The position numbers and the translations under genes are program-made. Under the pieces are notes generated by a model, which saw nothing but the letters and a program-made list of their open reading frames with translations, was not told the DNA's origin and ran no database searches. Of a stretch of DNA of 64,000 nt, positions 30,973-35,872 are shown piece by piece. The stretch's first letter is position 1; the number at the start of each line of letters is the position of its first letter. The DNA comes from an uncultured Gammaproteobacteria bacterium (GTDB taxonomy: Bacteria; Pseudomonadota; Gammaproteobacteria; PS1; Pseudothioglobaceae): contig CACLHR010000005.1 of the NCBI GenBank assembly GCA_902606745.1, forward strand, positions 1 to 64,000, read 5' to 3'.

Positions 30973-31059
30973 GCCAGTGTGGTGGAATTGGTAGACACGC
31001 CGGATTCAAAATCCGGTTCCTTCACGGGAGTGACGGTTCGAGCCCGTCCACTGGTACCA
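30973..31059 (+). tRNA. tRNA-Leu (anticodon CAA)
   Basis: 87 bases including CCA. The acceptor GCCAGTG pairs with CACTGGT (first pair G-U). The D arm is TGGTGGAATTGGTAGACACG. The anticodon stem CCGGA/TCCGG holds the loop TTCAAAA with anticodon CAA. A long class II variable arm follows, then the T arm with GGTTCGAGCC. The 3' end lies 148 bases before an integrase-derived reading frame, consistent with this tRNA having served as an integration site. Confidence 0.95.
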
Positions 31060-31149
31060 AATAATATAAGATTGGATTTTCTCGAAGATATTTGATAACT
31101 AAGTGAAATAATTTCCCAATTTTTTCTCAATTTTGTTTTCTTTATTTTG

Positions 31150-31178
31150 TTGACGTTCAATAAAATTTACAGTATATT
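31150..31178 (+). promoter_or_regulatory. Near-consensus promoter of the integrase/nucleotidyltransferase gene
   Basis: TTGACG (31150-31155), 17 bases, TATATT (31173-31178). The start codon follows 30 bases after the -10. It probably was the integrase promoter and now would drive the chimeric gene and the transporter genes behind it. Confidence 0.7.
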
Positions 31179-31207
31179 AGTCGGAACTTTCTATATTTTG
31201 GTAAATT

Positions 31208-32338
31208 ATGTTTCGTAATAGACTTTCAGTTGTACAAATTGATAACTTCAGAAATATGAGAACTGATGGAAAGTCAGACAGATTATCAGATGGAATGGGA
31301 TTATGGCTTAATGTTACGACAAAACAAACCAAACAATTCAGGTTTGATTATTCAAGACCAAATACTAAATCAGAAAATTCTCCAAACGGTAAGCGTAATA
31401 CAATTTCAATTGGCCAATATCCTTCTCTGTCGTTATTAGAAGCAAGAAAAATAAGAGATCAATATAAACTGTTACTTGCTGAAGGAATCGATCCTTCTGA
31501 GTGGAAGAAGTCACAAAAGAGAAAAAACATTCTTGAAAAGAGTAGTGATTTTACATTTCAAGAAGTAATTACGTCTATAAATGTCAAATCTATAATTATT
31601 GCTGCAGGAATTGGGAGTAGGCTTGATCCTTATACTGAAAGTCTACCTAAATGCATGTTGAAATTCGGAAATAGTACTTTGCTTGAAAGGCAGTTGAAGG
31701 CATACCGAGAGTGTGGGATAAATAACATCTCAGTTATTCGTGGATATAAAAAGGAGAAAATATATTATGAAGAACTAAAGTACTATGAAAATACAGACTT
31801 TAAGAATAATAATATTCTCAACTCCTTGTTTTATGCTGAAGAAGAAATATTTGGGAATGTCATCGTAAGTTATTCGGATATTTTATTTGATTCTAATGTA
31901 GTTAAAAGGTTACTAGAGTCAGATGCTGATATCTCGATTGTTGTAGATATTGACTGGCGAGGTTATTATGCAGATCGTAAAGATCATCCTATTGATGAAG
32001 CTGAAAAAGTTATATTTGATGCTAATAACAAAGTCATAAAAATCGGTAAAGTTTTAACGAGTAAAGATGAAGTTTATGGTGAGTTCATCGGTATGATGAA
32101 ACTATCACCTCGGGGCGCTGAAATTTTTAAATTACATTTTAATCGCGCCAAAAAAATTTTTTGGGATCGTCCATTTCAACGTGCTGAGACATTTCAAAAA
32201 GCATATATTACAGATTTAATTCAGGATATGGTTGATCTTGGTATGCCTATTCATTGTGTAATTATAGAAAGAGGCTGGAAGGAAATAGATACCGTTGAAG
32301 ATTATGAAAAGGCTTTGATAGAATTCGAAGATGGTTAG
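31208..32338 (+). CDS. Chimera: P4-type integrase N-terminus fused to a LicC/PntC-like nucleotidyltransferase
   Basis: 376 residues. Residues 1-~120 match the arm-binding N-terminus of P4-type tyrosine integrases (LSDGMGLWLNVT, NTISIGQYPSLSLLEARKIR, LLAEGIDPSEWKK) up to DFTFQEV, where the core-binding domain would start. From residue ~127 a complete nucleotidyltransferase follows: IIAAGIGSRLDPYTESLPKC near 129-149, a metal-binding YSDILF, and an end with GWKEIDTVEDYEKA. This type makes CDP- or NDP-activated choline, phosphonate or sugar. No in-frame ATG, GTG or TTG lies at the junction, so only the fusion start serves it. No integrase catalytic residues remain. Substrate is inferred at best from the phosphonate-type transporter downstream. 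Confidence 0.85.
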   Translation: MFRNRLSVVQIDNFRNMRTDGKSDRLSDGMGLWLNVTTKQTKQFRFDYSRPNTKSENSPNGKRNTISIGQYPSLSLLEARKIRDQYKLLLAEGIDPSEWKKSQKRKNILEKSSDFTFQEVITSINVKSIIIAAGIGSRLDPYTESLPKCMLKFGNSTLLERQLKAYRECGINNISVIRGYKKEKIYYEELKYYENTDFKNNNILNSLFYAEEEIFGNVIVSYSDILFDSNVVKRLLESDADISIVVDIDWRGYYADRKDHPIDEAEKVIFDANNKVIKIGKVLTSKDEVYGEFIGMMKLSPRGAEIFKLHFNRAKKIFWDRPFQRAETFQKAYITDLIQDMVDLGMPIHCVIIERGWKEIDTVEDYEKALIEFEDG

Positions 32339-32381
32339 TTTGTTTTAATTTAAACATATAAATTTATTGGGAGATTTTAGT

Positions 32382-33248
32382 ATGAATATTTTTAGAAATT
32401 TTTTTGCGATTATTGCGGTAGTTTTACTGTCATTTACATTCAGTATTTCACAGGCAGAGACGATCAATTTGAAGATGGTTTTTGTTCCGGCAAGTGAGAA
32501 GGGTGATGATAAGGATTATGTTAATCTTATTAATATAATCGGAGATCTTACTGGCATAGAAATAACACCTATTCGTGTTACAGACTACAATGCAGCTGTT
32601 GAGGCGGTGCGTGCAAATCGGGCACAAATTGCATGGTATGGGGGTAAAACATACATTCAGGCAGCTAAAATTGCAGACGTTGAGGCTTTCGCAGCCGGTG
32701 TTCGTAAGGGGGATACTGATGCCAGTTATTTTGCGTATTTTGTCGTTCCTGTTGATAGTAAGTTACAAACTTTAGAGGAAATTAAAGGTAAAACACTTGC
32801 ACTTAATAGTATCGGTTCGACCAGTGGAGATTTAATCCCACAAGTTGAATTAATGAAAGTAGGCTTATCTGTTAAAAACAAGGATGACTTCGAGAATGTC
32901 TATTATGCTGGAAGCCATGATGCATGTTTAATGGCAGTACTAAATAAGCATGCAGATGTCTGTGGTATGAGTTCTCGTAATTTTGATGCACGTATCCTAG
33001 ATGGAACATTTAAGCTTGAACAAGTTCGTATCATTCATCGTTCAAATCCAGTTCCACCACCTCCACTGGCCTACTCAAAGAAATTACCAATTGAAGTTCG
33101 TAATAAAATAAAAGAAGCAACACTTGAAGCTCACAAATATGGAACTATTGGGGGTTATGGTGGCGAAATGTCACATTATATTGAAGTGACTGATGCTGAT
33201 TACGATCTATTAAGAGAAGTTGACAAACTATTGAGTAGTCAACAATAA
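32382..33248 (+). CDS. phnD: Periplasmic phosphonate/phosphite-type binding protein (PhnD family)
   Basis: 288 residues from the ATG at 32382, which has GGGAG eight bases upstream; a TTG at 32367 only adds five residues. A signal peptide is clear (MNIFRNFFAIIAVVLLSFTF, then SISQAE). The mature part has the PhnD/PtxB layout: NAAVEAVRANRAQIAWYGG, an oxyanion-binding GSTSGDLIP near 150, SHDACLMAVLNKHADVCG and a conserved GGYGGEMSHY end. Family members bind phosphonates, phosphite or related oxyanions; the exact ligand is not readable. First transporter gene after the nucleotidyltransferase, 43 bases downstream. Confidence 0.88.
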   Translation: MNIFRNFFAIIAVVLLSFTFSISQAETINLKMVFVPASEKGDDKDYVNLINIIGDLTGIEITPIRVTDYNAAVEAVRANRAQIAWYGGKTYIQAAKIADVEAFAAGVRKGDTDASYFAYFVVPVDSKLQTLEEIKGKTLALNSIGSTSGDLIPQVELMKVGLSVKNKDDFENVYYAGSHDACLMAVLNKHADVCGMSSRNFDARILDGTFKLEQVRIIHRSNPVPPPPLAYSKKLPIEVRNKIKEATLEAHKYGTIGGYGGEMSHYIEVTDADYDLLREVDKLLSSQQ

Positions 33249-33275
33249 TAAAACTAGTAGATAAAGGGTACTGTT

Positions 33276-34040
33276 GTGCTTCTTGAAATAAAGGGACTTA
33301 GGAAGACTTTTGATGATGGGACAAGAGCCCTTCAAGGTGTAGACCTTTCAGTAAAACTAGGAGAATTTGTTGTAATTTTAGGGTCTAGTGGGTCTGGAAA
33401 GACAACTCTTCTGAGAAGTATAAATGGACTAGTTAATCCCGAGGCGGGTGAGGTAAAGTTTTTTGACCAAGTTATTTCATCTACCACTTTGCCTGATCTA
33501 AGAAAAAAAACTGGGATGGTTTTCCAAGATTTTAATCTAGTAAATAATCTTTCATCTTTAAACAATGTACTTACAGGGTTACTTGATTCTAGTAATTCCC
33601 TTATGTCAATGCTATATTTATTCTCTCGAGAACAAAAAATGCAAGCTTTGAAGTGCCTTGAAATGGTAGGATTGCTTGATAAGGCATATTCTCGTGTCGA
33701 TAAACTTTCTGGAGGTCAAAAACAACGTGTAGGAATTGCAAGAGCTATCATTAAGAATCCAACCCTACTTCTAGCTGATGAGCCTGTTGCAAGCCTTGAT
33801 CCTATGATCAGTGGTTCAATAATGACCCTATTGAAAAATATTGGACATAAAATTGGGTTAACCATAATTTGTAATCTTCATCAAGTAGATCTAGCACTTA
33901 AATATTCTGATCGGATTGTAGGACTATCTGGAGGGCGTATCGTTCTTGACGCACCAACTAAAGATTTAGATGAGGAGTATATTCGTAAAATATATCAAGG
34001 CCATGGTAGTGGGTTATTTTTTAATGAAGATGACATTTAA
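33276..34040 (+). CDS. phnC: Phosphonate-type ABC transporter ATPase
   Basis: 254 residues from a GTG start. Walker A GSSGSGKTTLLR near 36, Q-loop MVFQDFNLV, signature KLSGGQKQR near 146, Walker B LLLADEP and the H-loop in NLHQVDLA. The Q-loop region and the inserted LFSREQ segment are typical of PhnC/PtxA. It energises uptake through the PhnE part of the next protein. It lies 27 bases after phnD and 14 before the fusion permease. Confidence 0.9.
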   Translation: MLLEIKGLRKTFDDGTRALQGVDLSVKLGEFVVILGSSGSGKTTLLRSINGLVNPEAGEVKFFDQVISSTTLPDLRKKTGMVFQDFNLVNNLSSLNNVLTGLLDSSNSLMSMLYLFSREQKMQALKCLEMVGLLDKAYSRVDKLSGGQKQRVGIARAIIKNPTLLLADEPVASLDPMISGSIMTLLKNIGHKIGLTIICNLHQVDLALKYSDRIVGLSGGRIVLDAPTKDLDEEYIRKIYQGHGSGLFFNEDDI

Positions 34041-34054
34041 GCAAGGTCAAGGTA

Positions 34055-35611
34055 ATGAGTAGTTCAAATCTCAAAGTTTTTAATTCTTTAATAATGGCTG
34101 TTGCCCCTGGTGGGGATAATCTAGAAGGTTTAGATTTTCAGCAACTTGCTTCCTATCTCTCTGACAAAATTGGTATTCCTGTAAAACCAAAATATTGTAA
34201 AGATTACAATGAAGCAATGACAATGCTGTCAGACGGGATCGCCCAGATTGGTTGGTTAGGTGCTTATGCTTATAAAAAATTAGAGAGTGATAATAGTCCA
34301 GTTGTTGAATTTGCTGTTGGTGTGCCAAAAGGAAAAAATGTGCCTTTTTATCGTTCACAGTTTATCGTTCGTTCTGAAAGTAATATTCAAATTCTTGAAG
34401 ATGTTAGAAATAAAAGAATAGCTTTGGGTGACGTCTATTCAACAAGTGGTTATGAGGTACCAAGACGTGAGTTGTTAGATGTTGGAATTAACCTTCAAAA
34501 CGAAGGATCCTTTAAAGCTATTACCAATGTAGCTAATCACGATGAAGCAATTCGTTCAGTTATTCAGGGTACAGCTGATGTTGCACCAGTAAGTTCTATT
34601 AATCTGGAATTAATGATTGCAAACGGGACAATTAATACTAAAGATTTTCGTATTATTCATCAGTCACCTAATATTCCAGGTGCTCCTTTGGTATATCTTC
34701 GAAATCTTGAGAAAAATTTAAAAGAACAAATTAAGTCACTAGTACTTGATGCTCATAATCACATTGATGTGTCTGGTTACGGTGGTCACATGGATCGTTA
34801 TGTAGATCCAGTAGAAAGTCACCGTGAATACATTGAATCTTATTTGAGACCACAGTGGACCTGGAGGACAATAATTGGAATTCTCGCTTTCATAATGATT
34901 TACACCTTAATTGTGATTGATCTAGAAGTTGATATTTCACAATTATTATCGGATTCATTCTTGTATATGAAAGATGTATTGGGACGAATGCTACCTCCAG
35001 ATTTTTCTAATTTTAACCACTTAATGCTTGCAATGTTAGAGACGGTTGAGATTGCAATGTTGGGAACACTTCTTGCTATTGCTCTATCTATACCAATTGG
35101 TCTATTATCAGCACGAAATATTGCACCAAATTATCCCATCTATCTTATTGCAAGAACAATCACCGTTTTTTTTAGGGCTATTCCAGAATTTATCATGGCT
35201 ATGATTTTAGTTATAGCTATTGGTTTTGGAGCCATGCCGGGAGTTATAGCTTTAGGTTTTCACACTATGGGGTTCTTAGCGAAGTTCTATGCAGAATCAA
35301 TCGAACATGTCAATGAAGAGCCTATGAAGGCAATTGAATCTATGGGTGCTTCTAAATGGCAAATTATTGCATTTTCAGTGGTGCCTCAGGTTATCCCTTC
35401 ATTTATTGGTAACAATCTTTATATTCTAGATCGTAATATTCGAATGGCAACTATGTTGGGCATTGTTGGAGCAGGTGGCATTGGTTATGAGTTACAATCA
35501 GCATTTAGGATGTTTGAATATCCCCGTGTTTCAGCAATTATTATAATAATTTTCCTAACAATTTTCGTTATAGACATGCTCTCATCCTATATCCGTTCAA
35601 AAGTTTTGTAA
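34055..35611 (+). CDS. phnE: PhnD-like domain fused to PhnE permease
   Basis: 518 residues. Residues 8-265 are a second PhnD-type binding domain (DYNEAMTMLSDGIAQIGWLG, DVYSTSGYEVP near 126, VSGYGGHMDRY near 239), recognisably paralogous to the separate PhnD. No signal peptide or membrane segment precedes it. Residues 270-518 are a PhnE-type permease: TM near 272-290, MLPPDFSNF, then TMs near 326-350, 370-391 and 393-413, and the cytoplasmic coupling loop EEPMKAIESMGASKWQII (421-438). Four TMs before that loop place the N-terminal domain in the cytoplasm. A cytosolic sensing role is therefore possible. The fold assignment is secure; the topology is predicted. Confidence 0.88.
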   Translation: MSSSNLKVFNSLIMAVAPGGDNLEGLDFQQLASYLSDKIGIPVKPKYCKDYNEAMTMLSDGIAQIGWLGAYAYKKLESDNSPVVEFAVGVPKGKNVPFYRSQFIVRSESNIQILEDVRNKRIALGDVYSTSGYEVPRRELLDVGINLQNEGSFKAITNVANHDEAIRSVIQGTADVAPVSSINLELMIANGTINTKDFRIIHQSPNIPGAPLVYLRNLEKNLKEQIKSLVLDAHNHIDVSGYGGHMDRYVDPVESHREYIESYLRPQWTWRTIIGILAFIMIYTLIVIDLEVDISQLLSDSFLYMKDVLGRMLPPDFSNFNHLMLAMLETVEIAMLGTLLAIALSIPIGLLSARNIAPNYPIYLIARTITVFFRAIPEFIMAMILVIAIGFGAMPGVIALGFHTMGFLAKFYAESIEHVNEEPMKAIESMGASKWQIIAFSVVPQVIPSFIGNNLYILDRNIRMATMLGIVGAGGIGYELQSAFRMFEYPRVSAIIIIIFLTIFVIDMLSSYIRSKVL

Positions 35612-35711
35612 AAAGTAATTAAGAATTGTTATTTTCCTTCAATAATTTTTATAATCTAAATATTCTTTAAAATCGTACTTTGCTTATTTATTTTGTAAGC
35701 ATAATTTAAGT

Positions 35712-35717
35712 TATAAT
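35712..35717 (+). promoter_or_regulatory. Candidate -10 box in the phnE-oadG gap
   Basis: TATAAT in an AT-rich 261-base gap, with no convincing -35. It would give oadG a leader of about 150 bases. I see no recognised riboswitch in that leader. Confidence 0.35.
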
Positions 35718-35872
35718 ATTTGCGCTTGTAGCGGTGGGTTGAAAATGTTGTTAATTGGTGATTTTAATTAATGATATATATTTTTTAACTAACAAAAAAT
35801 TTAATTTAATTAATGGATGACAAATAGGTTTAAAAGACTTTTAATAATTAAATAAATTATTGAGGGATAACA

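Follow-up and report, generated by a model that had tools for sequence, protein, structure and literature searches.

An integrase front end joined in frame to a predicted cytidylyltransferase in a decayed tRNA-Leu island of an uncultured gammaproteobacterium

The 64,000 nucleotides of contig CACLHR010000005.1 analysed here (the window) contain, at 31208-32338 on the plus strand, a single unbroken open reading frame of 376 codons that starts with ATG and encodes the front end of a P4-type integrase followed by a complete nucleotidyltransferase. This arrangement of 376 amino acids in one frame is real and unusual. It lies in a 4.8-kb insertion next to a tRNA-Leu(CAA) gene and would be explained by a deletion in a decaying genomic island that joined the integrase gene (int) to cargo. 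Such an origin, with the expression of the resulting frame left open, appears quite probable. A gene of a mobile element and a cargo gene were turned into one ORF, at a site that is well defined and for which relatives with the empty site provide a control. If the ORF is expressed, it shows how island cargo can be domesticated by reuse of an integrase's start codon and regulatory region; if it is not, it provides a clear case that an intact fused frame alone does not prove a new gene.

An earlier note on this DNA had described the ORF as an in-frame chimera, and this was confirmed by the open frame and by independent family matches when both halves were searched separately. Residues 7-102 constitute an Arm-DNA-bind_3 domain (PF13356; Pfam E 4e-19, above cut-off), the N-terminal arm-binding domain of P4-type tRNA-associated tyrosine integrases, and the best solved-structure matches of residues 14-114 (phmmer against PDB) are the phage integrase arm domains 3ju0 and 3jtz. 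Alignment with intact integrases extended the integrase-like stretch to 'TFQEV' at about residue 120, a few residues inside the first helix of the core-binding domain. The claim that this part stops precisely at the expected beginning of the core-binding domain therefore holds to within about five residues, with the similarity running just inside the helix. Pfam detected no PF00589 in the fused ORF. It shares with P4-type integrases (3ju0, 3jtz and the intact copies L018, L101, L102, L106, L107 and L109 of the same genus) the arm domain, the place just past the 3' end of a tRNA gene and the orientation, but it lacks their core-binding and catalytic domains and its frame enters an enzyme instead.

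The enzyme half matches NTP_transf_3 and NTP_transferase from residue 127 on (Pfam E 3e-9 and 9e-9, respectively). For residues 123-233, LicC (1jyk) was the best solved-structure match, and the cytidylyltransferase-type domain is complete (residues 124-376). The motif GIGSR-X8-PK at residues 134-148 agrees with the nucleotidyltransferase consensus GXG(T/S)R-X4-8-PK (PMC6697681). Over its entire length and with no frameshift, this half is 76% identical to a stand-alone protein of 261 residues, L002, from a Rhodospirillales MAG. L002 has an ATG of its own, which aligns with residue 115 of the fused ORF and hence within the integrase-like stretch, indicating that the enzyme of the fused ORF has lost its own start. 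An AlphaFold model based on an alignment of two sequences reached a mean pLDDT of 34 and was left unused.

In-frame ATG, GTG or TTG codons are present in the fused ORF at residues 1, 17 and 30 and then at 150, 151, 158 and later. None occurs between residues 30 and 150, so that the absence of such a codon at the junction, as noted before, was verified, and from an ordinary start an enzyme with its motif can be obtained only if integrase sequence is translated as well. Production of the enzyme from a non-canonical internal start, with the integrase stub being incidental, was considered in this context. An ATT at 31568, for example, would yield 256 residues; it is close to the start of the stand-alone relative and is preceded by a purine-rich stretch (AAGAAG). 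However, ATT starts are rare and weak, and since no ATG, GTG or TTG is on offer, this explanation is very improbable.

By its sequence, the enzyme is a member of the LicC/PntC/Cj1416 superfamily and predicted to be of the cytidylyltransferase type. The designation 'LicC/PntC-like' in the earlier note is correct at the level of the superfamily but too narrow otherwise. In a tree of 33 domains, the enzyme and L002 form a fully supported separate pair on a long branch, and the rows that come next by path are a homologue linked to APS kinase, GATase and PPDK (G214) and one linked to GATase (G027). The motif and the match to LicC are thus shared with the known LicC/PntC/Cj1416 cytidylyltransferases, while the separate branch and the N-terminal integrase extension set the fused ORF apart. 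Genes for PEP mutase, PhnW or a CDP-alcohol transferase, the neighbours expected for PntC, were not found in the island, and the tree places the enzyme outside the PhnW-linked rows. In the genome, which is 82.5% complete, PEP_mutase gave a single weak match (49 bits) to a 438-aa frame on contig C2, which was taken, from its length alone, as an isocitrate lyase-like protein.

The position of the tRNA-Leu(CAA) gene just upstream of the fused ORF, already noticed before, was confirmed by ARAGORN (Table 1). In three close relatives (G017, G027 and G014; 90-93% DNA identity) the site is empty: sequence corresponding to that up to 31061 is followed by about 16 bp and then by sequence corresponding to that from 35868 onward, the start of an apparent oxaloacetate decarboxylase (oad) operon. 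The same order of tRNA and oad genes is found in more distant members of the genus. Accordingly, the 4.8 kb represent an insertion in the genome bearing the fusion, since loss in all others would be less simple. The insertion contains the fused ORF, phnD, phnC and a phnD-phnE fusion, and its G+C content is 33.8% versus 37% in the flanks. As in P4-type islands, it is inserted at the 3' end of a tRNA gene and has empty sites in relatives, but at its right border no attR, the direct repeat of the tRNA 3' end, was found. The missing attR is consistent with loss of the border, and the insertion is therefore regarded as the remnant of an island that is no longer intact. Island decay at tRNA-Leu is well supported.

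Table 1. Features of the tRNA-Leu(CAA) region (positions refer to the window)
Feature	Position	Strand	Basis or remark
tRNA-Leu(CAA), integration target	30973..31059	+	ARAGORN; conserved beside infA in genus members
4.8-kb insertion (island remnant)	31062..35867, right edge approximate (35845-35867)	.	blastn empty-site comparison with L020, L021, L022 and others
Three near-copies of the 13-mer TTTCTNNATTTTG (31123, 31137, 31188)	31123..31200	+	Repeat search; weak candidate arm-type sites
Promoter-like TTGACG-17-TATATT, 10/12	31150..31178	+	Not distinguishable from chance in an AT-rich region
Integrase part of the fused ORF (residues 1-120): arm-binding domain and first core-binding residues	31208..31567	+	Pfam, PDB phmmer, alignment with intact relatives
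Junction zone (residues ~121-124)	31568..31579	+	Exact breakpoint would need parent sequences
Nucleotidyltransferase domain, complete, GIGSR-X8-PK intact, same frame	31580..32338	+	Pfam, structure matches, L002 alignment
phnD-type substrate-binding protein, 43 bp past the fused ORF; ATG with Shine-Dalgarno-like GGAG	32382..33248	+	Domain profiles
phnC-type ABC ATPase	33276..34040	+	TIGR02315 above cut-off
phnD-like domain fused to phnE permease, no evident signal peptide	34055..35611	+	ORF and domain profiles

The insertion separates tRNA-Leu from the oad operon, which in the nearest relatives begins some 20 bp past the tRNA. A promoter-like TTGTTA-18-TATAAT at 35626, in the region 35612-35872, might replace lost read-through into this operon. 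For the phnD-phnE fusion, the stop-to-stop frame is just seven codons longer than the gene, and a search of 80 family genomes found no other close match. Without an evident signal peptide, its binding domain would lack an obvious route to the periplasm.

Decay joining int to cargo, as proposed in the earlier note, is in agreement with the empty site in the relatives and with the missing integrase core, although the deletion itself is inferred. No integrase C-terminal sequence is present elsewhere in the island. In the draft genome (63 contigs), Arm-DNA-bind_3 was detected only in the fused ORF. Two other Phage_integrase genes, whose frames span 294 and 305 aa, have no arm domain of that type; from their size and this absence they were taken to be XerC and XerD. 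The lack of the core in both island and genome is in keeping with a deletion that has one end within int and the other at the beginning of the first cargo gene, although at 82.5% completeness the missing part could in principle reside in the unassembled fraction. A parent island, with an intact int beside the same cargo, was not found among the relatives searched, so that the deletion was not seen directly. Intact P4-type integrases next to tRNA or tmRNA genes occur in the same genus, and a source was therefore available.

The following course of events may be envisaged. A P4-type tyrosine integrase would have inserted a small genomic island at the 3' end of tRNA-Leu(CAA), with the enzyme gene heading a cargo in the order enzyme, phnD-phnC-phnDE. 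A deletion would then have removed the sequence between codon ~120 of int and the beginning of the cytidylyltransferase-type gene and, as the frame happened to be preserved, have left one ORF for the arm-binding domain and the whole enzyme, in an island presumably no longer able to move itself. If this ORF is translated from the start of int, the enzyme would be complete apart from carrying the arm domain mostly as an N-terminal leader, and transcripts that enter via int would also reach the phn genes, which begin 43 bp further on.

An assembly error that joined two unrelated loci within the contig would produce the same picture, and the source is a draft. On one contig, however, relatives show synteny with both flanks. 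Elsewhere in the genome, the lost portion of the integrase does not occur and the enzyme has no second close copy, and a random join would preserve the frame only about one third of the time. An assembly artefact is accordingly highly unlikely. The arrangement named as refuting in the earlier note, two separate complete genes at the same place in relatives, was not encountered either, as the relatives have neither gene there.

To judge how rare the fusion is, the class was surveyed. In 369 genomes, 150 arm-domain matches were listed, including that of the fused ORF. Frames of odd length (30 short and 4 long) were inspected singly, whereas the rest were near integrase length. The 34 inspected frames specify integrases ending in a frameshift, a stop, a contig end or a short tail, or full-length integrases with an N-terminal extension; a join to another enzyme was seen in none of them, short tails being judged by eye. 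Decay of int is therefore common (30 short frames among the 150 matches listed), but an in-frame join of int to a complete enzyme was seen only in the ORF described here and in none of the 34 odd-length frames inspected. It resembles the truncated integrase stubs of decayed islands in that int function was lost by deletion or frameshift, and differs in that its frame runs into a complete cargo enzyme. Looking for the same fusion in related genomes gave a negative result: it was absent from 58 relatives (whole protein as query), 83 family genomes (arm half) and 398 phylum genomes (enzyme half). Sequenced genome contigs yielded only the stand-alone L002 and one distant match, viral contigs contained no such fusion, and in tblastn searches of plasmids and phages no record reached 80% query coverage. 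A closer relative of the enzyme was not detected in the order of G214, and in the open-licence literature searched no integrase-arm/enzyme fusion of this kind is described.

That the fused ORF constitutes a new expressed gene, as had been suggested, is not supported by its signals. Upstream of its ATG no Shine-Dalgarno sequence is present, whereas phnD, phnC, phnDE and the oad genes all have a match. The near-consensus promoter said to drive the enzyme does exist as hexamers with 10 of 12 matching positions, but that it must do so is unsupported, because promoter-like sites are at chance level in the region (26 found, 25.1 expected from shuffled sequence). These observations would also suit a dead remnant, not usefully transcribed or translated and open only because the deletion is recent, with the phn genes expressed separately. 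The absence of the insertion in relatives of 90-93% identity, which suggests that it may be young, and the frequent decay of int point in the same direction. On the other hand, the enzyme half has kept its catalytic motif and its full-length similarity to a distant relative, and the arm half is intact too. A dead remnant overlaps with the deletion-born fusion and differs from it in the expression step only; it is a possibility of clearly less than even probability. In favour of expression, both halves are free of stops and frameshifts and phnD follows closely on the same strand. An expressed, functional fusion is plausible from sequence, and functional expression is given a chance somewhat below one half.

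In a further variant of expression, both domains of the protein would work, with the arm domain still binding arm-type sites in the stretch from the tRNA to the start codon. The cytidylyltransferase would then act as a repressor at the promoter from which it and the phn transporter are transcribed, and would be a trigger enzyme derived by accident from a decaying integrase. Negative autoregulation through attL sites that overlap the int promoter is predicted for many tRNA-associated integrase genes (PMC2951348), and three near-copies of the 13-mer TTTCTNNATTTTG flank the promoter-like site, an arrangement matched by one in 300 dinucleotide shuffles. The 13-mer, however, is T-rich and only mildly significant, and cooperative binding may be lost when the arm domain lacks the catalytic core. 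Moreover, in the same genus the repeat ahead of int is a different one, GTGAGTAGA, so that the 13-mer is a lead only. Overall, self-regulation is very improbable. The GTGAGTAGA-like motif is repeated just before int (L018, L106, L101, L107 and L102), between tRNA or tmRNA and int and partly with an inverted copy, and these repeats could be arm-type or autoregulation sites. The tmRNA tag in the genus is ANEDNYALAA, and the small size of the genome and its gene content hint at a streamlined gammaproteobacterium.

The gene neighbours give some indication of the role of the island cargo. L002 adjoins a CDP-glycerol glycerophosphotransferase-like protein that is 40% identical to a protein on contig C10 of the fusion-bearing genome, where the latter stands beside a second phn set. 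From these neighbours, the cargo probably serves to take up a phosphonate or phosphate ester, which would be activated with CTP and then transferred to a surface polymer. PhnCDE systems can also carry phosphate (PMC6469041, PMC10284923), and the identity of the imported compound is therefore uncertain.

The second phn set (L115:3954-12239 in G000) comprises phnD, phnE, a gene for an ATP-sulfurylase-family protein and one for a 649-aa protein combining a CDP-glycerol glycerophosphotransferase-like domain with a PhnC-type ATPase. Next to the latter are a further glycerophosphotransferase-like gene and a weak match to sulfatase. Distant homologues of the enzyme (L116, L117, L118, L119, L121, L062 and L063) are found in clusters with PPDK-like and glutamine amidotransferase genes, some of which also contain APS-kinase genes, and two genomes of the same genus carry such clusters. 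In domain content, the clusters appear to resemble Campylobacter cj1415-1418, needed for O-methyl phosphoramidate (PMC3907429; PMC12409886). The fused ORF differs from Cj1416-type clusters in that GATase, PPDK and APS kinase are not beside it.
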